A stretch of DNA of 64,000 bases from Enterobacter cloacae (lineage in GTDB: Bacteria; Pseudomonadota; Gammaproteobacteria; Enterobacterales; Enterobacteriaceae): NCBI GenBank assembly GCA_014169315.1, contig AP022133.1:3906001-3970000 (forward strand), in the 5' to 3' direction. The position numbers were made by a program, and so were the translations under genes. The number at the start of each line of letters is the position of its first letter. The first letter of the stretch is position 1. This document shows positions 1,218-15,114 of the stretch, in pieces. The notes beneath the pieces are model-generated. The model was not told where the DNA came from. It did not search any database and saw nothing but the letters and a program-made list of their open reading frames with translations.

Positions 1218-2081
1218 TCAGAAGAAGAAATCCCAGACGGCGCGGGCCACAGAGACCACGGTGGTGCGCACGGCCTGAATGACGGCCCGCACAGGTGTGG
1301 GTATCAGAGGAAAGGCACTGATGCTATCGAGTAGAGCACCGACGGTTTCACCAAAATCGCTTCGAGCCTGTTCCCGGACTACCGTCGTGCGAAAGGAAGG
1401 CTGGAGTTGCGACACCACCGGGCTGGTGGCCTCACGTGGCAGGCACTTAATCATCCGCTCGGCCATCACCCTAAGCCCCCATTGTAGACGGACCGACACA
1501 GCACACACCGGATGTACGGGCTGGAACAGCTCATGCAGCAGGCAGATTTTGCGGCTGATATTCTGCTTCTGCGCGGTGGACAACTGACCATTACCGGTGG
1601 TGGGTTCGGCCTTGTCCGACTGACTGATAACGAACAGCACCTTATGCCGGTATACCTCACCAATAACCTGACGGTAAAAGTGCTCATCCACAGCCAGAGC
1701 CCGGTCATCAGCCTTAATCAGCCACAGCACCAGATCGAGCTGGGGAAGCTGTTGCTGGTACAGCGAAGCATACTCAGCATCGCGGGCACTGCTTTCCCCC
1801 ACGCCGGGCAAGTCCACGATGGTCATAAAGCGCTCTCCAACCTGCAGGCGAAATTGCAAAGGTTCACGGGTGCAGGCCGCGACATGGCTGACTGGCGATA
1901 CTTCGTCGACAAACAAAGCGTTGCAAAGGCTACTCTTTCCCGCCCCGGTTTTACCCATAATGCCGATCACAGGTTCATAGTCGATAAGCAAGTAAATGTG
2001 TTTCAGGATTGTGTCAAACAGTTGTGCAGGTAGCACTGTCATCGCCTCGCTGATAATGTTGATACCTTCTTGTTTATTCAT
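1218..2081 (-). CDS. YfjP/YeeP-like 50S-ribosome-type GTPase
   Basis: This is a 287-aa P-loop GTPase, the length of E. coli YfjP. It shows a G1 loop GKTGAGKSS near residue 43, the G3 motif DLPG near residue 90, and a G4-like SQSDK. The C-terminal half is hydrophobic (AFPLIPTPVRAVIQAVR, then VVSVARAVWDFFF), suggesting membrane association. These Era/TrmE-related GTPases are found in CP4-type islands; their function is unknown. The start at 2081 is preferred over 2108 because GGA lies 8 nt before it and the length then matches the family. The leader contains a strong hairpin (2111-2134). Confidence 0.8.
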   Translation of the reverse strand: MNKQEGINIISEAMTVLPAQLFDTILKHIYLLIDYEPVIGIMGKTGAGKSSLCNALFVDEVSPVSHVAACTREPLQFRLQVGERFMTIVDLPGVGESSARDAEYASLYQQQLPQLDLVLWLIKADDRALAVDEHFYRQVIGEVYRHKVLFVISQSDKAEPTTGNGQLSTAQKQNISRKICLLHELFQPVHPVCAVSVRLQWGLRVMAERMIKCLPREATSPVVSQLQPSFRTTVVREQARSDFGETVGALLDSISAFPLIPTPVRAVIQAVRTTVVSVARAVWDFFF

Positions 2082-2110
2082 GATTTTTCCAGGCAGAAAA
2101 TAAAACAATA

Positions 2111-2134
2111 ACGGCGAACCTGTCGGTTCGCCGT
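2111..2134 (-). terminator. perfect hairpin in the leader of the YfjP-like gene
   Basis: A 10-bp perfect inverted repeat (ACGGCGAACC / GGTTCGCCGT) with a 4-nt loop. Read on the minus strand it is followed by a T-rich stretch (TTATTGTTTTATTTT) and then, within about 30 nt, the start of the GTPase gene. It has the form of an intrinsic terminator, so it may end an upstream minus-strand transcript or attenuate the GTPase operon. The rest of 2135-2399 shows no gene and no convincing promoter. Confidence 0.5.
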
Positions 2135-2399
2135 ATAGATAGTAATGTTCTGTAAGATGATATATATCTGAAATTATTTGGATTATCTGATGTAGCTGGG
2201 TAGTGGGAACCGCGTTTCAGACATACCGATAATAGGCTGTAGCACTCGGTTTAGGATCGATGAAGTCGTTGATTAGTGTTAATATTAGCGCCAATTTTTC
2301 AGCGTTCTGATTCCGTCAATACATCAACACATTAGGCTCTCTTGAAAGCTTAAAGTTCAGAACCTACCATGCTCAGAATTGATAAGAAGAAAGGAATAT

Positions 2400-4538
2400 A
2401 TGTCCAGGCTGACTGATTTAATTGCCAAAGCGAAGGCCAAAGACCCGCAATTAGGTGCTGATTTGGATCGAGAAATCAAGATTCTGTCGTCACGTCTACC
2501 CTTTGGACTTAATTTTGAAAGACATAGCCCTGAAGTTGTTGAGTTGCCATTGCGGCCTATTCGCAAGGGAGACAAGGTTCGCGTGCTGCCAGAGCGTGGG
2601 TCAACTAAGAAAGGTGATCAACGGCTGTGGCAAGTTAAAGCCATTCATAAGTCGAAGAAGGTCGCTGATCTCGAATTGCTGGGCGCGGCTGATGTCGAAA
2701 CTCAGACTGTAGCGCTTGACGACCTTGTAGTTATAGCTGAATTTCGTGACACGATCTGGCCGGGTCTGGTTAGTACAGGAAAAGTGCAACGCGGCGGAGA
2801 CAAACCTTTCCACTCAGTTATCAATGGCGAGAACTACCATGTGTTAAAGGCATTAACCTATACACACAGGGGCAAAGTGGATGCCATCTATATCGACCCG
2901 CCGTATAACACAGGGGCAAAAGACTGGAAGTACAATAATGACTACGTCGAAGGTGACGACATCTATCGACACAGCAAATGGTTGGCGATGATGGAACGTC
3001 GCTTGCTAGTAGCTAAAGAATTGTTAAATCCAGCGGATTCGGTGTTGATCGTCACTATTGATGAAAAGGAATATCTGCGGCTGGGAATGTTGCTGGAACA
3101 AATATTTCCGGAAGCTAACGTGCAGATGGTTTCATCAGTTATAAATCCAAAGGGAGCTTCTCGTGGAAACGGATTTCGACGTACTGATGAATATCTCTAT
3201 TTTGTGATGTTTGGAGCTTCATCACCTGCACGCCTTCAGCTTGGTGCTGATTGGGCTAGTTCTGCTTCAAGTACAGTAGAGGATAGTGAAGAAGGGAAAG
3301 CACCATCGACACCAGAATGGACCTCAATGATGCGACGTGGTTCACACGCTTCCCGTGCGGAGCGGCCTGGGCTTTTTTTCCCAATATATGCTACTCCCGA
3401 TGGAAAACGAATTGTTGAGATTGGCGAGAGCATTCCGTTAGGAGCAGAACTCCCACAAGACAGACCCGGACTGACGACTATTTGGCCTCTACGTTCAGAT
3501 GGTTCAGAAGGTGTATGGCAAGTTGGGCCTGCAGAATTACGAAACCGCATTGAGCAAGGTAGGGTTAGACTAGGACGAGCCACTTCCTATGGTTTTGTCG
3601 TGAATTATCTTCCTGACGGTGCGTATGCAGCCGTATTGTCTGAACTTTTCGAAATACATGGTCGTGCTGAGGATGGCTCACTAATAGCAACAGGTCGCCG
3701 CGATACTCGACGAGTTGCCCCCTCACAGTGGAAAATTGCATCTCATAATGCCTCAGAGTATGGCACCGCCCTTCTTCGATCCTTGTTACCGTCGAGGACT
3801 TTTCCATTCCCTAAATCGCTTTATGCTGTTGAGGACGCTCTTCGCTTTTTTGTTGCTAACAAGCCCAAAGCAATCATTCTCGATTTCTTTAGTGGTTCAG
3901 GTACAACAGCCCACGCAGTCATGCGCCTAAACAAGCAAGATGGTGGTTATCGTCAGTGCATCTCTGTCACTAATAACGAAGTCGCTGCCGACGAACAGAA
4001 AAAATTGCGACAACAGGGCTTTCGCCCCGGAGATCCTGACTGGGAAAATTGGGGCATTTGTGACTACATAACCAAGCCACGTGTACAGGCTGCCATCACA
4101 GGTAAAACGCCGAAAGGACAACCTATTAAGGGCAATTATAAATTTATCGATGAGTTCCCCATGTCTGAAGGCTTCGAGGAAAACGCCGAATTTTTCACCC
4201 TGACCTACGAAGCTGAGAAATCGGTTAGCCACAATTTGGCCTTTGTTCACATTGCGCCGTTACTGTGGCTACGCGCTGGCGCATGCGGCAAACGTATTGA
4301 CAAACTGCCTGCTAAAGGATGGGCGGTGACTGATGCTTATGGCCTGCTGTCGGCTATGGATCAGGCCACCCCCTTCATTGAAGCCATTAGCCATGCCAGT
4401 GACGTGCGCGTGGCCTTCATCGTCACCGACGATGATCGTCACTTCCAAGCTGTCACCAGACGTTTACCAAAAGGCGTTGAGCCTGTGCGTCTGTACGAAT
4501 CGTACCTGACCAATTTCAGCTTCACCAGTGGGGAATAA
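2400..4538 (+). CDS. mod: Type III-like DNA adenine methyltransferase (Mod)
   Basis: The 712-aa protein is a beta-class N6-adenine methyltransferase: the catalytic DPPYNTG motif is at about residues 166-172 and the S-adenosylmethionine motif DFFSGSGTT at about 495-503. That order (motif IV before motif I) with a long variable stretch between them, the likely target-recognition region, is typical of Type III Mod subunits. It modifies DNA and supplies sequence recognition for the Res partner. The start is ATG at 2400 with AAGGA 6 nt upstream; a TTG at 2379 lacks a site. The stop lies 5 nt before the res start, so the two are one operon. Part of a mobile island. The recognition sequence cannot be predicted. 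Confidence 0.88.
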   Translation: MSRLTDLIAKAKAKDPQLGADLDREIKILSSRLPFGLNFERHSPEVVELPLRPIRKGDKVRVLPERGSTKKGDQRLWQVKAIHKSKKVADLELLGAADVETQTVALDDLVVIAEFRDTIWPGLVSTGKVQRGGDKPFHSVINGENYHVLKALTYTHRGKVDAIYIDPPYNTGAKDWKYNNDYVEGDDIYRHSKWLAMMERRLLVAKELLNPADSVLIVTIDEKEYLRLGMLLEQIFPEANVQMVSSVINPKGASRGNGFRRTDEYLYFVMFGASSPARLQLGADWASSASSTVEDSEEGKAPSTPEWTSMMRRGSHASRAERPGLFFPIYATPDGKRIVEIGESIPLGAELPQDRPGLTTIWPLRSDGSEGVWQVGPAELRNRIEQGRVRLGRATSYGFVVNYLPDGAYAAVLSELFEIHGRAEDGSLIATGRRDTRRVAPSQWKIASHNASEYGTALLRSLLPSRTFPFPKSLYAVEDALRFFVANKPKAIILDFFSGSGTTAHAVMRLNKQDGGYRQCISVTNNEVAADEQKKLRQQGFRPGDPDWENWGICDYITKPRVQAAITGKTPKGQPIKGNYKFIDEFPMSEGFEENAEFFTLTYEAEKSVSHNLAFVHIAPLLWLRAGACGKRIDKLPAKGWAVTDAYGLLSAMDQATPFIEAISHASDVRVAFIVTDDDRHFQAVTRRLPKGVEPVRLYESYLTNFSFTSGE

Positions 4539-4543
4539 ATAGA

Positions 4544-7117
4544 ATGAAGTTCACTCTCAAGGACTACCAGCGCGATGCTGTGCGTGATTCGCTGGTAAAT
4601 CTCAGAAAGGCTCGCCGTTACTGGCATAACGAGAATGAAAAGAGCGCCTTCTCTTTAACGGCTGTGACCGGTGCGGGTAAGACTGTCATGGCTGCCGCTG
4701 CGTTTGAAGCATTATTTCATGGCGACGACGAATTTAATTTCGATGCCGATCCCGGTGCGGTCGTGATCTGGTTCAGTGACGATCCTGCACTGAACGAACA
4801 AACCCGTTTTCGCCTGATGGAGGCCAGTGACCGTATCAACTATAACGATATGGTAGTCGTTGAACACCCTTTCAGTCGGCGCAAGTTTCAGGCCGGGAAA
4901 ATCTATTTCCTTAACACGCAGAAGTTTGGCAAGAATAGCCTATTGGTGCGCGGGTTCGATGATAAAGGCGGGCTTTTCGAAGCAGCCCCTGATGCGCAGG
5001 CTTATACGTTGTGGGATACCATCCAGAACACCATCGAAGATCCGGATCTGACACTTTACTTGGTGCTGGATGAAGCGCACAGGGGGATGGGTTCGTCAAC
5101 GACATCCAGCGAAGCAGCTAAAAGTACCATTGTGCAACGGCTCATCAATGGTTCGGCTGGGGTAAAGGGTATTCCAGTAGTATGGGGGATCTCCGCAACA
5201 GTTGAACGTTTCGACAAAGCCATCGTGAATGCTGGTCACCATGTCAAACTGCCGAACGTAGTGGTTGACCCCGCTAAAGTGCAGGAATCGGGACTTATCA
5301 AGGACGATATCATTCTGGGTGTGCCGGAAGAAGCTGGTGACTTCGATACAGTGTGGGTACGCCGTGCTGCCGACAAACTCAGGGAAGCGACCGATGCCTG
5401 GGCAGAGTATGCAAGACAGCAGGAAACCGTGCGCGAAGTAGTGCCTCTGATGGTATTCCAGGTACCCAATATGCCAGATCCGAACGAGGTCGGACGCTGG
5501 CTGGATACGTTATTCTCGCGTTATCCTGAATTGCCCATTGACAGTGTTGCTCATGTTTTCGGTGAACACACCACACAACGTTTCGGCCAACATCAGGTAC
5601 CTTATATTGAACCGCAGCGGGTGCAGGAATCCACCTGGCTGCGTGTACTGATTGCTAAGGATGCCATCAGCACTGGTTGGGATTGCCCGCGTGCCGAAGT
5701 GATGGTTTCCTTCCGCGCGGCCAGCGACAGGACACATATTACACAATTGCTGGGGCGTATGGTGCGAACTCCACTGGCAAGACGTATTCCGGGTAATGAG
5801 CGCTTAAACTCAGTAGAATGCCTGTTGCCTAAGTTTAATACCAATACCGTAAGAGATGTCGTCAATACCTTGTTCAGGGGCGATGATACATCTCCTCCGA
5901 GCGGACGCATCCTGGTTAACCCTGTGGAGATGAAACCTAACCCGGCGGCTTCATCTGCCGTATGGGAAGTATTTGAAGCGCTACCTTCGCAAACCCGACC
6001 ACAGAAAGGAGCCAGACCCGCCAGACGTCTGACCGCACTGGCACAGGAACTGGTTGATGACGGCATTCTTGATGGGGCAGTTGGGAAAGCCCATGCTGCT
6101 TTGCACGCTGTCCTGGACAGGTTCCAGACAGAAAATGCTGAAAAAATTAAAAACAAGCGCAATGCCGTGCTCGTTGTAGATGGTAAAGCGGTGGTTGCCA
6201 GCCTGAAGAACAAAGCAATGACCTTCAACGAATTCTGGGAGGAGGCGGACGTAGCGGTGATTGATGACGCCTACCGGCGTGCAGCCCGAATCTTCAGCCC
6301 GGATGTTTCACGTACCTATGTGGAATATCTGGCCGATAAGGTCGCGGATCGAGAAGAGGATGCAGAGGAGTACCTAGAAGCAATCATGGAAGCTCGTGTA
6401 ACCGTTGCTGGCCTAGGGCTAGTGATGGAGGTGCAGGATTACTTCGATGCCGAGGCCGATAAACTGGCGAAGACTTGGCTGATGGAGTATACACTGCAGA
6501 TCAAGTCGTTGAAAGATGAGCGTAAAGAGGCTTACCGTCAAATCGTCGAAATGAGTACCGAACCACAGGATGTGGATCTGGTCAGGCCGGAGAACAAGTT
6601 TGAAATGACCAGAGCGCGTGAAGGTGAGAAGGAAACTGACCTTCCAGTCTGGAAACACCATTTATTGTGTGACGAAAGTGGGAACTATCCAGCTCAGTTG
6701 AACCAGTGGGAAACCACGGTTTTTGAGATCGAAACCAGACGTGAAGGATTTGCTTTCTGGTATCGTAATCCACAGTACACAGGACAGTCTTCACTAGGCA
6801 TCGCCTATGTTGAAGCCGAACAATACAAAATTGTTCGTCCCGATTTCCTGTTTTTTGCCAATCACGATGGCAAAATGGTTGTAGATATGGTTGATCCACA
6901 TGGTCTCCATCTGGCTGATGCTTTGCCCAAATTGAAAGGGTTGGCGTTGTATGCCAAACATCATTCCAATGCTTACAGGAGAATCGAATCCGTTGCGGAA
7001 GTGAAGGGTAAATTACGGGTTTTGGATTTGAAACGACTGGATGTACAGGATGCAATTGCTAATGCTGAAAATGCAGAACTGTTATTTAGTAGCGGACTTG
7101 CTGATGACTATCAGTAA
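4544..7117 (+). CDS. res: Type III-like restriction subunit (Res), superfamily 2 helicase-nuclease
   Basis: The 857-aa protein has a superfamily 2 helicase core: Walker A TGAGKT at 42-47, DEAH box at 176-179, STGWDCPRAE (motif V) and QLLGRMVRTPL (motif VI). The C-terminal region would hold the nuclease. It has PDF at 766-768 and DMVDPH at 781-786, but no obvious acidic-x-Lys pair as in classical PD-(D/E)xK Res subunits. It presumably translocates on DNA with Mod and cleaves unmethylated targets. It follows mod by 5 nt. It is somewhat shorter than the well-known EcoP1I/EcoP15I Res proteins (about 970 aa), so the system is a divergent Type III-like branch. Confidence 0.85.
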   Translation: MKFTLKDYQRDAVRDSLVNLRKARRYWHNENEKSAFSLTAVTGAGKTVMAAAAFEALFHGDDEFNFDADPGAVVIWFSDDPALNEQTRFRLMEASDRINYNDMVVVEHPFSRRKFQAGKIYFLNTQKFGKNSLLVRGFDDKGGLFEAAPDAQAYTLWDTIQNTIEDPDLTLYLVLDEAHRGMGSSTTSSEAAKSTIVQRLINGSAGVKGIPVVWGISATVERFDKAIVNAGHHVKLPNVVVDPAKVQESGLIKDDIILGVPEEAGDFDTVWVRRAADKLREATDAWAEYARQQETVREVVPLMVFQVPNMPDPNEVGRWLDTLFSRYPELPIDSVAHVFGEHTTQRFGQHQVPYIEPQRVQESTWLRVLIAKDAISTGWDCPRAEVMVSFRAASDRTHITQLLGRMVRTPLARRIPGNERLNSVECLLPKFNTNTVRDVVNTLFRGDDTSPPSGRILVNPVEMKPNPAASSAVWEVFEALPSQTRPQKGARPARRLTALAQELVDDGILDGAVGKAHAALHAVLDRFQTENAEKIKNKRNAVLVVDGKAVVASLKNKAMTFNEFWEEADVAVIDDAYRRAARIFSPDVSRTYVEYLADKVADREEDAEEYLEAIMEARVTVAGLGLVMEVQDYFDAEADKLAKTWLMEYTLQIKSLKDERKEAYRQIVEMSTEPQDVDLVRPENKFEMTRAREGEKETDLPVWKHHLLCDESGNYPAQLNQWETTVFEIETRREGFAFWYRNPQYTGQSSLGIAYVEAEQYKIVRPDFLFFANHDGKMVVDMVDPHGLHLADALPKLKGLALYAKHHSNAYRRIESVAEVKGKLRVLDLKRLDVQDAIANAENAELLFSSGLADDYQ

Positions 7118-7137
7118 CTTATAGAAAATTAAGAAAA

Positions 7138-7162
7138 TGGTCTTTTTATAAATAGAAAGGCC
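7138..7162 (+). terminator. imperfect hairpin after res (left of SIR2 gene)
   Basis: GGTCTTT pairs with AAAGGCC (one G-T wobble) around an A/T-rich loop, 20 nt after the res stop codon. The sequence closely resembles a hairpin after the next gene (8813-8838). It has no strong T-run, so termination is likely weak. Confidence 0.4.
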
Positions 7163-7234
7163 GTAGTTATATAAAATCCATTTATATACTGTTTTACAAT
7201 CGCACTAATAAAATTGAATAAATAGGTGATAACT

Positions 7235-8773
7235 ATGAATTTAGGATTCTTTTTTGGCGCTGGGGCAGAAATAGGGTATGGATTGCCAAGTGGCGGCAAA
7301 TTTGCCATTGACCTTTTTCGGCAAGACCCGAGCCAGTATAAAACTGAGCTTCGACAGCAACTGAGATTAGTGGACTCACGCTCTCCTTATGCCAATGATT
7401 GGCTACCTCAGGGATATGCTGATAAGAGTATTTATGCTTTTGGACGTAACGAATTTACTAGTATTATTGAATCATCTATCGAATATAAACGTGAGGAAAT
7501 AATTCGGCGTCTAAACCGTTTTGATCAAGAATGCGATGATGCGATATTGGCACTAGGAATTGATAGAGGCACACTAGAAAATTTATTTTTAGAGTTGACA
7601 GGCAATGTTATTGGTGAACGTTTGTACACACACGACATTCGTCTTAACGAGTTATTGGCAAGAGATGTTAGATTATTTGAGTCAGAATACTACTCGGCCA
7701 TGTTAGATGTAGTACGACAATCAGATAACAACGATGATTTAAAAAGATATGTCACATCATTTTTGCAATTATTAGTCGGCGCACACGGTCAAGCCCTCGT
7801 GCAACGCTTGAACCAAGAGTTGTTTGAAGCTGCGCCGGATGATTTACCAATCTTCGATGATATTACCGGCATGTTCCGCCTAGAGTTTAATCGCATAGGC
7901 TCAACAGCTCTAGAATTATTGCTGGAAGAAAATAGAAACTTCAATATTGATGAAGATGCAACCGCTCTTACACTTTTCTGCGCGATAGCCCAAAAAGTAT
8001 TAGAGAATCTGTTTACGACTGTACTCGATTACCAGAAATTAATAGATGACCATTTTCGCTACCTCTTCTCGCCATCCACCGAATGGGCTAAATTCACGCG
8101 TATGGTTATTTTTCTTAAGATAGCCCGTGATTATATCAGTGCCCAAGCACCATCTGTCGAAGATCTTCCCGATCATGGCTATTATCATGACTTAGCTACA
8201 TTCACTGGTGACTTAACAATTTCAGCCATTGGAACAGCCAATTATAATAGCCTTCTAGCAGAGGTTTTCCGTGGTATGAATATAGAATTGCCGCAAATTA
8301 TCCACCTGAATGGTAGTGTGCATGACTATTATAATCCCTATAAAAATGCGGTTATCACTTGTGAAAATCCAGATGATGTAGATCAAAGCCAGATCCATGT
8401 TCCCTTCATGCTGACACAAAGTGGTCTTAAGCCTTTAACGTCGGTAACCATGTCAAGACGGTACGTTAGTCTATTCGATGCTTATGCTGAATCTGACGCT
8501 ATTGTTGTTGTAGGCTTTGGATTTAATAAGGATGATAGTCATATTAATGGACTTTTTCGCGAGTTGGTTGAAAATCAAGGGCGGAAGTTAATCCTTATTT
8601 CAAGAAGCGTAGATGGAACAGTTGAAGAACAGAAACGACGACTGCGTAACAAATTACGTATTTCCCACGCATTTAATCACTTGCTAACAGTTATTCCTGT
8701 AGATGATCACACTAGACTTCAAGATGGACAACTATGGTTGGAGCTAGTCTTAGCGTCGTTAAATGAACAATAA
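7235..8773 (+). CDS. SIR2-domain protein, candidate defence NADase
   Basis: The 512-aa protein carries split SIR2 (NAD-binding) signatures: GAGAE at 8-12 followed by GLPSG, TANYN at 334-338 (canonical TxNYD), HLNG at 357-360 with the likely catalytic histidine, and VGFGFNKDDSHIN at 426-438. About 320 residues, predicted largely helical, separate the first and second motifs, far more than in classical sirtuin deacetylases. Such long SIR2 proteins in bacterial defence loci degrade NAD upon phage infection (family knowledge: ThsA, DSR, SIR2-HerA systems). No second effector domain is evident. The ATG at 7235 is preferred, with AGGTGA 5 nt upstream. It lies 117 bp after res, same strand, and is more A/T-rich than mod-res, suggesting separate acquisition. 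Its own N-terminus has no signal peptide, so it is cytosolic. Confidence 0.75.
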   Translation: MNLGFFFGAGAEIGYGLPSGGKFAIDLFRQDPSQYKTELRQQLRLVDSRSPYANDWLPQGYADKSIYAFGRNEFTSIIESSIEYKREEIIRRLNRFDQECDDAILALGIDRGTLENLFLELTGNVIGERLYTHDIRLNELLARDVRLFESEYYSAMLDVVRQSDNNDDLKRYVTSFLQLLVGAHGQALVQRLNQELFEAAPDDLPIFDDITGMFRLEFNRIGSTALELLLEENRNFNIDEDATALTLFCAIAQKVLENLFTTVLDYQKLIDDHFRYLFSPSTEWAKFTRMVIFLKIARDYISAQAPSVEDLPDHGYYHDLATFTGDLTISAIGTANYNSLLAEVFRGMNIELPQIIHLNGSVHDYYNPYKNAVITCENPDDVDQSQIHVPFMLTQSGLKPLTSVTMSRRYVSLFDAYAESDAIVVVGFGFNKDDSHINGLFRELVENQGRKLILISRSVDGTVEEQKRRLRNKLRISHAFNHLLTVIPVDDHTRLQDGQLWLELVLASLNEQ

Positions 8774-8812: not shown

Positions 8813-8838
8813 TGGCCTTTCTAATAGATAGAAAGGCT
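8813..8838. terminator. hairpin between SIR2 gene and convergent YagK-like gene
   Basis: GGCCTTTCT pairs with AGAAAGGCT around a short A/T loop in the 82-bp gap between two convergent genes. It could serve both as a bidirectional terminator. It is a near copy of the hairpin at 7138-7162, so the SIR2 gene is bracketed by similar sequences in the same orientation. Confidence 0.5.
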
Positions 8839-12952: not shown

Positions 12953-13111
12953 ATGCACAAACAACCAATGTCATCCTTCGTTACTAAAGAACAAATCTAC
13001 CGCGCCGTTGCCAGCTCGACCGCGATAGAAACCGGTGCTCCTGTGCACAAAATTGAGCAGCAGCTTAAACGCAATCAGGCACTGGCGAAAGCCGTTGGCC
13101 TCGCCCGCTAG
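12953..13111 (+). CDS. small 52-aa protein convergent with fic
   Basis: The reading frame is open from 12887, but the ATG at 12953 has AGGA 7 nt upstream and is preferred. The 52-aa product is helical and basic at the end (KIEQQLKRNQALAKAVGLAR). It contains SSTAIETG, loosely like the S/T-xxx-E-G/N inhibitory motif of class I Fic antitoxins (VbhA type), with Thr in the last position. It overlaps the end of the convergent fic gene by 4 nt instead of preceding it, which is unlike known vbhA-vbhT order. An antitoxin role is a guess. Confidence 0.5.
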   Translation: MHKQPMSSFVTKEQIYRAVASSTAIETGAPVHKIEQQLKRNQALAKAVGLAR

Positions 13112-13722
13112 TCTGGCAAGATATCGCTCACCAGCTGCATCATAGGGCTGTAGTTCCCTGATACGCCTGCCTGTATTGCCTTGAAGTAAAACGCCTTATG
13201 CTCATCCCACAGGCTGTAGTCCAGTAAGCCCTTTCCCGCCAGAACCGACAACACATCGCAAAGCAATCTCGACAGACGCCCGTTACCTTCTCTGAATGGG
13301 TGGATCAAAATAAATTCCACATGGCATTCAGCCAGATAACGAACCAGCTCCGGACGAGCCAAGGATTTCAGTTCACCAGACCGGGAAAGAAACTGCTTCT
13401 CGAAACCATCAAGCAGCAGCGGAATCCTGTCGGCAGCGGCAAACTGAAAGCCGTCCTTAGTCAGGTTAGTGTTACGCAGCCTCCCTGCCCAGTCATATAC
13501 ATTCCCCAACCATTGGCGATGCCACGTGCTGATGTGATCAAAAGCTAGCACCTCAGGCGGCTGGCCCTCGATAAATAGCTGCTCATACAGCATCAGCAGC
13601 AAGCCAGACTCCAGCGCCTCCATTTCCTGCTCATCAATGATCCCCAGCTTATTGGCAAGCACTAGGTCGTTTGAGCCTGGCTGATATCGCTCTTCTGCTG
13701 AATTAAGCTCATATCTTGACAA
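13108..13722 (-). CDS. fic: Fic-domain AMP-transferase (toxin-like)
   Basis: The 204-aa protein is a Fic/DOC enzyme with the complete active-site motif HPFREGNGRLSR at 141-152; the histidine and the anion-binding GNGR loop are intact, so it could transfer AMP from ATP to target proteins. The start is best placed at TTG 13722: GGAGG lies 7 nt upstream inside the last codons of the integrase gene, and the TTG is 4 nt past the integrase stop. Translation is therefore probably coupled to the integrase. No classical antitoxin gene precedes it, nor did I find an internal S/T-xxx-E-G/N segment with confidence. The other candidate is the small convergent gene. Confidence 0.85.
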   Translation of the reverse strand: MSRYELNSAEERYQPGSNDLVLANKLGIIDEQEMEALESGLLLMLYEQLFIEGQPPEVLAFDHISTWHRQWLGNVYDWAGRLRNTNLTKDGFQFAAADRIPLLLDGFEKQFLSRSGELKSLARPELVRYLAECHVEFILIHPFREGNGRLSRLLCDVLSVLAGKGLLDYSLWDEHKAFYFKAIQAGVSGNYSPMMQLVSDILPD

Positions 13723-13726
13723 GTCC

Positions 13727-15043
13727 TTACCTCCGTCCAAACAAGTTCACAACGTTGTTTTCCTGCTGCCGTTGATAGTTGTTGACCCGATCCTCCCAAA
13801 TCTCAAGCGCCCTGCGTTTTTCAGTCAAGTAATCATAACGGTCATAGTGTTTCGAGCTGACATCGTTCAAAGCGTGATTCTGAATACGGTCGCGGATCTC
13901 TTTGCTGATCCCCGCCTCCCCCATCAGCGTTTTACAGGTACGACGTAAATCTCGCGCCGTGAAAACTTTAAACTCAGGATTAAAGGCCCGAAAATACATG
14001 ATGGAACGCGCCAGACTATCCGTGCGCACTGGGCGCTCACCGTTCGTTGATAACGGAAAAATAAAGGGACTGTTACTTTCCTTAGTCAGCTCTTTAACTG
14101 AGGCTAATTCCTGTAGTGCCGATTCAGTCAGCGGGATCAGATGCTCACGCTTGTTTTTCGATACATCGGCTATGACCAGCAACGTCTTTTGTTGCCAATC
14201 AATAGCACTCCACTGGCTGGCAATCATTTCAAACGGACGCTGTCCACCAGCATAAACACAGAAGCGAATCAGATGCTGCATCAGCGGCCCAACGTTGGTG
14301 GCCTCGACGAACTGTTCCATGACAACACGCAACTCTTCCAGCGTTAACCATGTATCACCCACTTTTTCCGCCGAAGACTGTTTCGGTATGGCCGAGACCG
14401 GGTTAACTTCAAGACCAAACGTGATACCCACGCTGGTATTCATCGGATCGTTATCGGCTTTAAGCCCATAGTTGAATGCCGCCATCAGATAGGAACGAAT
14501 TCGGTTTGCATGGACCACCGCATCACGCTGGATAATGCCTGACAAGATCGTTTTGATCTGTAAGGGCGTGACATCTTTCGCTTTGGTCTCGCGAGGAATG
14601 ACTGAATAGCACTCTTTTTCAAGACGCTTCAGTACATCGGCCCAGGTCCGCTTATTGTCGAGCTTCATCTTATTAACGTAACCATGCACCAGTTCTTCAA
14701 ACGATCCTTGAGAACGATGGATCTGCATGATGTGCTGTTCGGCCAGGCGCTGTTGCTCAAGCTCTTGCTGGGGCTCTTTTCCTTCAACAAGCCAGGCACC
14801 ATACTTTTTCGCCAGCTCATTGGCCGTCACCAGTTTCATCTCAGGCCAGATGCCCAACTGGATGAACTTCTCTTTCTTCCCTTTCTCAACGTAATAACGG
14901 AAATAAAAAACTTTGCTGCCTGAAGGCTGAACCTTGACGCCAAGCCTGCCAGTACCACGTTGAGCACTGTTGCTCCACACGTAGTACGCCGTGCTTTTAG
15001 TCTTCAATCCACGTATAGCAGTCTCGGTAAGATTAGCGGCCAT
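13727..15043 (-). CDS. P4-type tyrosine integrase
   Basis: The 438-aa site-specific recombinase has an N-terminal DUF4102-like arm-binding domain (LTETAIRGLKTKSTAYYVWS) and a C-terminal catalytic domain: Arg in GGQRPFEM, RDLRRT, then NHAL and the nucleophile Tyr in KHYDRY. It integrates and helps excise the island at the ileX tRNA, whose 3' copy is 200 bp upstream. The start at 15043 (MAANLTE) has AAGG about 9 nt upstream and fits family length; 15088 would be a longer alternative. The leader holds repeated 11-bp motifs. The last codons contain the fic ribosome binding site. Confidence 0.92.
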   Translation of the reverse strand: MAANLTETAIRGLKTKSTAYYVWSNSAQRGTGRLGVKVQPSGSKVFYFRYYVEKGKKEKFIQLGIWPEMKLVTANELAKKYGAWLVEGKEPQQELEQQRLAEQHIMQIHRSQGSFEELVHGYVNKMKLDNKRTWADVLKRLEKECYSVIPRETKAKDVTPLQIKTILSGIIQRDAVVHANRIRSYLMAAFNYGLKADNDPMNTSVGITFGLEVNPVSAIPKQSSAEKVGDTWLTLEELRVVMEQFVEATNVGPLMQHLIRFCVYAGGQRPFEMIASQWSAIDWQQKTLLVIADVSKNKREHLIPLTESALQELASVKELTKESNSPFIFPLSTNGERPVRTDSLARSIMYFRAFNPEFKVFTARDLRRTCKTLMGEAGISKEIRDRIQNHALNDVSSKHYDRYDYLTEKRRALEIWEDRVNNYQRQQENNVVNLFGRR

Positions 15044-15068
15044 GAGTTTACCTTTCTGAAAATAAGCG

Positions 15069-15114
15069 TTACCTGACCCGATGCCCATTTTGGGTCAGGT
15101 AATGGGTCAGGTAA
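15069..15114. promoter_or_regulatory. repeated 11-bp motif upstream of int (operator or arm sites)
   Basis: One inverted copy (TTACCTGACCC, 15069-15079) and two tandem direct copies (TGGGTCAGGTAA, 15091-15102 and 15103-15114) lie just before the integrase start. This arrangement suggests binding sites for the integrase itself (arm sites, autoregulation) or for AlpA. No direct evidence distinguishes the two. Confidence 0.55.

Follow-up and report, generated by a model that had tools for sequence, protein, structure and literature searches.

The window analysed here is a stretch of 64,000 nucleotides of the Enterobacter cloacae contig AP022133.1 (assembly GCA_014169315.1, forward-strand positions 3,906,001 to 3,970,000). 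It contains a mod-res gene pair of a type III-like restriction-modification (R-M) system, which is followed by a gene for a SIR2-like protein. The three open reading frames (ORFs) all lie on the plus strand (Table 1), with gaps of 5 nt between mod and res and 117 nt between res and the SIR2-like gene. The ORFs and motifs agree with a preliminary description of this DNA in the lengths, strand and spacing of the genes, in the DPPYNTG and FSGSGTT motifs of Mod and in the DEAH box of Res.

Table 1 Features of the mod-res-SIR2 locus (positions within the 64-kb window)
Feature	Positions	Strand	Basis
mod, type III DNA methyltransferase, 712 aa	2400..4538	+	ORF, Pfam, PADLOC
DPPYNTG motif, Mod residues 166-172	2895..2915	+	coordinates converted from residue numbers
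Variable target-recognition region, Mod residues 240-445	3117..3734	+	allele alignment, limits by eye
FSGSGTT motif, Mod residues 497-503	3888..3908	+	motif alignment
res, type III restriction helicase, 857 aa	4544..7117	+	ORF, Pfam, family alignment
DEAH box, Res residues 176-179	5069..5080	+	family alignment
C-terminal PDF...D..DPH stretch, Res residues 766-787, nuclease-like	6839..6904	+	family alignment; nuclease reading inferred
Hairpin between res and the SIR2-like gene	7137..7164	+	similar sequence in the five further SIR2-bearing enteric loci of the alignment
SIR2-like R-M-associated protein, 512 aa	7235..8773	+	ORF, Pfam, family searches, profile comparison
GAGAE, residues 8-12, SIR2 GxGxS loop with Ser to Glu	7256..7270	+	alignment
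TANYN, residues 334-338, counterpart of TTNYD in other SIR2 proteins	8234..8248	+	alignment, profile comparison
LNG, residues 358-360, counterpart of catalytic HG, His to Asn359	8306..8314	+	alignment, profile comparison
GFGFNKDDSHIN, residues 427-438	8513..8548	+	His436 in 151/151 rows
Terminator-like hairpin between the SIR2-like gene and a convergent inovirus-Gp2-like gene	8815..8837	-	hairpin scan

Mod matches the PADLOC type III methyltransferase model PDLC03645 over residues 1-712 (E 1.4e-296). The type III order of motifs, DPPY and then FxGxG with a central variable target-recognition region, is present. Over residues 1-239 Mod shares 91-99% identity with five enteric alleles, and over residues 446-712 it shares 80-98%. 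Residues 240-445 are 26-32% identical to four enteric alleles and 97% identical to that of Escherichia coli strain 873.10, and the alleles fit the pattern of exchanged target-recognition regions. Mod specificity, as read from this region, is shown to be exchangeable beside a conserved SIR2 gene: in three related loci (L001, L002 and L009) the region differs (26-32%) while the SIR2-like protein stays 94-95% identical to that of the window.

The adjoining Res carries the DEAH helicase expected of a type III partner and matches PF04851 (ResIII) with E 1.1e-12; its matches to PADLOC models of type III restriction are weak and partial (best E 4.8e-9). Its C-terminal RPDF.FF...D..DPH stretch is kept in all 20 aligned sequences (the window and 19 relatives), with R765, P766, D767, D781, D784, P785 and H786 invariant. 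Since the Lys of the canonical (D/E)xK is absent at its usual place in all of them, the predicted cleavage by Res is not assured. The family is very large, 7999 of the 7999 scored candidates lying at E <= 0.001. The E. coli K-12 gene yagJ (NC_000913.3 291500-292231, prophage CP4-6) has 90% DNA identity to the 3' end of res and looks like a res remnant; IS1 adjoins it, yagK is next, and there is no SIR2 between them.

The 512-aa SIR2-domain protein of the preliminary description is a weak match when taken alone: it scores 22.3 bits against Pfam SIR2_2, under the cut-off of 24.5 bits, and the PADLOC SIR2 models match it only weakly and partially. The assignment was upheld by its family, 45 of whose 63 members match SIR2_2 at E <= 0.01. 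When the family was compared, profile to profile, with other SIR2_2 proteins of enteric genomes in two groups, the matches had E 1.6e-5 (probability 79%) and E 5.9e-5 (65%), and the motifs align. The family search retrieved 609 proteins at E <= 0.001, and a second search starting from the alignment was no wider (608). Phage records contained no relatives at E <= 1e-5, and a direct sequence search of solved structures with the family yielded two chance matches alone (E 0.31 and 0.38).

Conserved residues were counted over the 151 rows of an alignment to the window protein, namely 120 database proteins and 31 locus rows, which are partly the same proteins. Glu12 replaces the Ser of the GxGxS loop in all 146 rows having a residue there (the other five have a gap), every row retains the catalytic TxN Asn (Asn336), and Asn338 stands for Asp in 150. 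The catalytic His of the HG motif is not retained; Asn359 takes its place in 150 rows and Ser in one. In contrast, this His is kept in all 16 of the other SIR2_2 proteins aligned with MAFFT (those of the 22 that are shorter than 560 aa). The HG motif is kept in 21 of the 22, 20 by scan and one (L107) by alignment, the remaining one (L113) having an unaligned LHG. The profiles of these other proteins match the solved SIR2-like chains 8w9l, 8j4u and 8yhx, and KomC, ThsA and DSR2. The window family thus resembles ThsA, DSR2, SIR2-HerA and KomC in its SIR2_2-type motifs and is weakly linked to them through SIR2_2 proteins that match their structures, but it lacks the HG His and any direct sequence match to solved structures.

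These data bear on the suggestion of the preliminary description that the protein forms an NAD-depleting back-up layer. A standard SIR2 NADase, hydrolysing NAD+ upon infection as ThsA, DSR2 and SIR2-HerA do, would be in accord with the SIR2_2 similarity and with the retained GAG loop, TxN motif and GFGF motif. However, the protein does not fit the canonical NADase mechanism, because the HG His is replaced by Asn. The deposited KomC(H146N) NADase structure has N for H at exactly this motif, a DSR2(H171A) structure has been deposited as well, and PMC10973363 uses the N133A/H171A double mutant of DSR2 as its catalytic-mutant control. We therefore regard a standard NADase as unlikely and NAD depletion by this protein as doubtful. 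If NAD is the substrate, the enzyme would have to work without the usual His, possibly by means of the invariant Glu12. The missing His advises caution in calling each SIR2-like defence gene an NADase. The gene itself is under strong purifying selection, the ratio of nonsynonymous to synonymous substitution rates (dN/dS) between the window and L001, L002 and L009 being 0.031-0.038. Given this low ratio and the about eighty invariant columns in the alignment of the 63 members, the protein is presumably functional, with another chemistry or a binding role.

The context of the family was examined in 39 loci besides the window (3 from E. coli, 5 from plasmids, 19 from a set with one genome per species and 12 from other genomes), a non-random sample drawn from SIR2 similarity searches. 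Of the plasmid records with a match, 5 of 9 are in the sample; of the Clostridiaceae genomes, 12 of 16 are, those with partial matches (G1206, G1365, G1381 and G1388) being omitted. The E. coli strains ES6, ES10 and ET625 stand outside the count. R-M genes were sought within 7.5 kb of the SIR2 match. Type I genes were verified by Pfam and PADLOC on representatives and the remainder by phmmer comparison with those seeds, and the type III genes of L020 and the Dnd genes of L021 were verified by PADLOC. An R-M or Dnd gene or remnant was found near SIR2 in 22 of the 39 loci, so that in diverse bacteria the gene is embedded in R-M loci or next to them. The context was type I in 15 loci, the mod-res of the window in 4, a res remnant in one (L011), an unrelated type III pair in one (L020) and a divergent Dnd operon in one (L021). 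One and the same SIR2 family thus accompanies unrelated type I systems, type III systems of two families and, in one locus, Dnd. The order mod-res-SIR2 of the window recurs in L001, L002, L009 and L010, the contig of L010 ending within mod. In L021, a Clostridium (1649-8397), the SIR2-like gene is divergent from the adjoining dndB-dndC-dndD.

The type I loci show three gene orders, M-S-SIR2-R, M-S-R-SIR2 and SIR2-M-S. Some are incomplete: only hsdS was seen in L007 and L008, hsdR was not seen in L012, and in L013, L015 and L018 the contig ends within the locus. In the 7 loci with hsdS immediately upstream, its distance from the SIR2 match ranges from -10 to 51 nt; among the 5 with hsdR immediately downstream, the gap is 12-30 nt in four, and the ORFs overlap in L013. 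These short gaps fit co-transcription of SIR2 in type I loci. RhuM follows SIR2 in L012 and L016. BRO-N proteins are encoded both inside a SIR2-holding type I operon (L017 7648-8502) and at the position behind the type III res of the window kind (L030 11034-11828).

The remark of the preliminary description that no standard type III system with such a third gene is known needs correction, since Sir2 was listed among the toxin-like domains of type I and type III R-M loci by Makarova et al. 2012 (PMC3506569), who proposed a coupling of immunity and suicide. The linkage of their Sir2 domains to R-M, AbiH and prokaryotic Argonaute (pAgo) is of the same kind as that found here, although the window family, its missing His and its Dnd link are not defined in the available part of that paper. 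In the literature searched we recognised no paper describing this SIR2-like family; a preprint by Payne et al. (2024), which deals with embedded defences, may list it.

A tree of the family points to repeated changes of partner. L024 (partial) and L026 (the Anaerococcus obesiensis copy, broken by stops) were excluded, stops were treated as X, and the 38 rows (the window and 37 loci) were collapsed at 95% identity to 31: 14 with type I, 3 with type III of the window kind, 1 with the other type III, 1 with Dnd and 12 with none seen. L051 was labelled as solo despite its contig of 3.5 kb. A mainly proteobacterial clade of 15 rows (support 100/100) comprises 11 type I rows, 3 type III rows (the window, L001 and L002) and the undetermined L051. 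The R-M association changes at least 5 times across the tree, with L051 not counted. HsdM of L072 and of L018 shares 23-31% identity with its counterparts elsewhere in the sample whereas the SIR2-like proteins are 50-61% identical, so the SIR2 gene has moved between unrelated systems. In the tree as drawn, the type III clade branches from within the type I rows, which favours the direction from type I to type III; this is unproven, the approximately unbiased test against a type-I-only clade of 11 rows giving a non-significant p-AU of 0.09. Between the window and L002, synonymous divergence (dS) is 0.25 for res, 0.83 for SIR2 and 1.59 for mod, so the histories of the three genes are partly separate.

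Among 295 Enterobacteriaceae genomes, res was found in 4 (E <= 1e-100), SIR2 in 5 and both in 3 (hypergeometric P 9e-6); the res and SIR2 genome sets, having the same handles, were treated as one, and G418, G638 and G639 were taken as the genomes of L010, L011 and L009. G402 has res without SIR2, G608 has SIR2 without res, and G638 has SIR2 with a res remnant below the length needed for the cut-off. In complete E. coli genomes, SIR2 of the window type was present at the DNA level in 6 of 5426. Directly upstream of it lies mod-res in 5 of these; ES6, ES10 and ET625 share the three-gene order. The sixth, MS 115-1, has IS1 in the upstream position and a shortened SIR2. Coverage of the mod-res pair reached at least 80% in 17 E. 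coli genomes and 70% in another six, namely E1 and the five SIR2 strains with mod-res. The slot after res was read in 12 of these 23 genomes and holds SIR2 in 5, BRO-N in 3 (MMC-J-0085, OkiPb01714 and A20), a 244-aa protein in one (E1) and no same-strand gene in 3 (873.10, mussel ST536 and ES1); none of the other 11 is among the six SIR2 genomes. Strain 873.10, which has the best-scoring mod-res, a Mod 98% identical to that of the window and the same target-recognition region, is without SIR2. That SIR2 is exclusive to this mod-res type is ruled out by this strain and by the type I and Dnd neighbours elsewhere. The link between SIR2 and mod-res asserted in the preliminary description consequently holds as company with restriction in general and fails as a bond to this particular pair. 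Read strictly, the neighbourhood survey of homologues proposed there goes against it, since most of the SIR2 homologues examined are without this mod-res, an outcome named there as refuting; yet R-M or Dnd genes or remnants lie near SIR2 in 22 of the 39 loci.

Taken together, the SIR2-like gene is a recurrent accessory of R-M systems that probably serves phage defence, either as a PrrC-like guard or as a second line acting independently. As the best explanation for the window we tentatively propose, with not quite even confidence, a type III Mod-Res system with an added mobile SIR2-like accessory gene which would serve as a guard or second line tied to restriction. The guard role is suggested by the position of the gene, by its recurrence beside R-M systems and by two precedents. 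PrrC of the type Ic system EcoprrI is likewise an extra gene within an R-M locus, its association is kept in diverse bacteria, and it acts upon restriction inhibition, as described in PMC3506569 and PMC12707154. PrrC, however, is an anticodon nuclease with an ATP-binding cassette (ABC) NTPase domain, whereas the window protein is SIR2-like and its guard role would hold by analogy; Pfam, PADLOC and NCBIfam found neither an ABC NTPase nor an anticodon-nuclease domain in it. DarTG2, a toxin-type defence, occupies the same type I operon slot between hsdS and hsdR in the RptR island of enteropathogenic E. coli (EPEC; PMC12255303), but it is a toxin-antitoxin pair, while the window family is a single SIR2-like gene which occurs also with type III and Dnd. 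Defence genes embedded in type I operons are established more generally (PMC11411939, PMC12255303).

In the proposed guard arrangement, Mod-Res would cut unmethylated DNA as the first line, and the SIR2-like protein would be kept inactive until restriction is blocked or infection advances. Once active, it would halt the growth of the infected cell as PrrC does. As SIR2 occurs next to such different R-M enzymes, a trigger common to them seems likelier than docking to one particular Res; candidates are a restriction block, DNA lacking modification, a product of restriction or some phage factor. If this is true, a single accessory guarding unrelated restriction systems would imply a shared sign of restriction failure that can be sensed. 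A bolder version, in which a His-less SIR2-related enzyme, with Glu12 as the best candidate for its catalytic residue, is a plug-in guard adopted independently by type I, type III and phosphorothioation systems and is set off by a block of any one of these, is rather improbable on present evidence.

Several observations weigh against a tie to restriction. No R-M gene was seen within 7.5 kb in 17 of the 39 loci, so the SIR2-like protein can persist without R-M. These loci comprise 10 of Clostridiaceae (L022, L023, L073-L075 and L077-L081), 4 of other Bacillota (L005, L006, L024 and L026), two of which are plasmids, and 3 others (L003, where IS1 is present, L051 on its 3.5-kb contig, and L071). 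Upstream of L024, which is counted here, lies a gene for a protein of 844 aa that matches DEAD and ResIII. The figure of 22 loci is a raw count, without a matched control of the R-M neighbours of other mobile genes; for scale, hsdS matches occur at two places in the window's own 5.0 Mb genome. In several type I loci another gene stands between SIR2 and hsdS or hsdR, with gaps of up to 404 nt (L019). In E. coli mod-res is often without SIR2 and is followed by other genes or none, and in the enterics a gap of 117 nt with a hairpin does not show that SIR2 is co-transcribed with res.

The loci without R-M and the varied content of the slot after res would also be expected if the SIR2-like protein sensed a phage part alone and acted without Mod-Res, R-M loci being merely good landing sites. 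This independent second defence is the main rival and a real possibility, although we consider it on the doubtful side. In Vibrio cholerae, TgvAB within a type I locus protects without need of HsdR restriction activity according to PMC11411939, and SIR2-HerA pairs are reported between or downstream of R-M systems in Streptococcus thermophilus (PMC11514479). The occurrence of the family with type I, type III and Dnd in different phyla, however, goes beyond one hot-spot, and the short gaps within several type I operons also speak against this reading. TgvAB by itself is moreover reported as 10- to 100-fold less protective against several phages than in a strain with more of the locus, so neighbours may matter.

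The loss of the catalytic His together with the retention of many invariant residues, and the position within hsd operons, could also be explained by a pseudo-sirtuin regulator, which would bind NAD, ADP-ribose or a related signal uncleaved and tune restriction. The Clostridiaceae copies mostly have no nearby R-M gene to tune, and we consider such a regulator improbable. A passenger gene on a mobile island, with no functional link to its neighbours, would account for the absence of SIR2 beside the same mod; an integrase (13727-15088) and other cargo are also present in the surrounding stretch. Against it stand the dN/dS of 0.03-0.04 and the repeated R-M association across phyla, which make it very unlikely.

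The preliminary description had placed the locus in a tRNA-inserted island. This is not seen in the window: ARAGORN detected no tRNA in the whole 64 kb, and one tRNA (anticodon CAT) is situated some 4.3 kb beyond its left end. Insertion at that tRNA is conjectural. The whole gap of 117 nt (7118-7234) folds better than its own shuffles (z -2.89). The hairpin stretches 7143-7161 and 8819-8837 on the two sides of the SIR2 cassette are 84% identical over 19 nt, but a true repeat flanking the cassette was rejected, as the other loci examined are unlike the window in this respect. Terminator-like sites in the region number 5, against a shuffle mean of 6.5, and the promoter scan of the region gave 7 sites, below the 11.6 of the shuffles. 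Next to the integrase, a Fic-domain protein is encoded on the minus strand (window 13108-13740), with a strong match to the PADLOC model PDC-S04 (E 4.4e-91).

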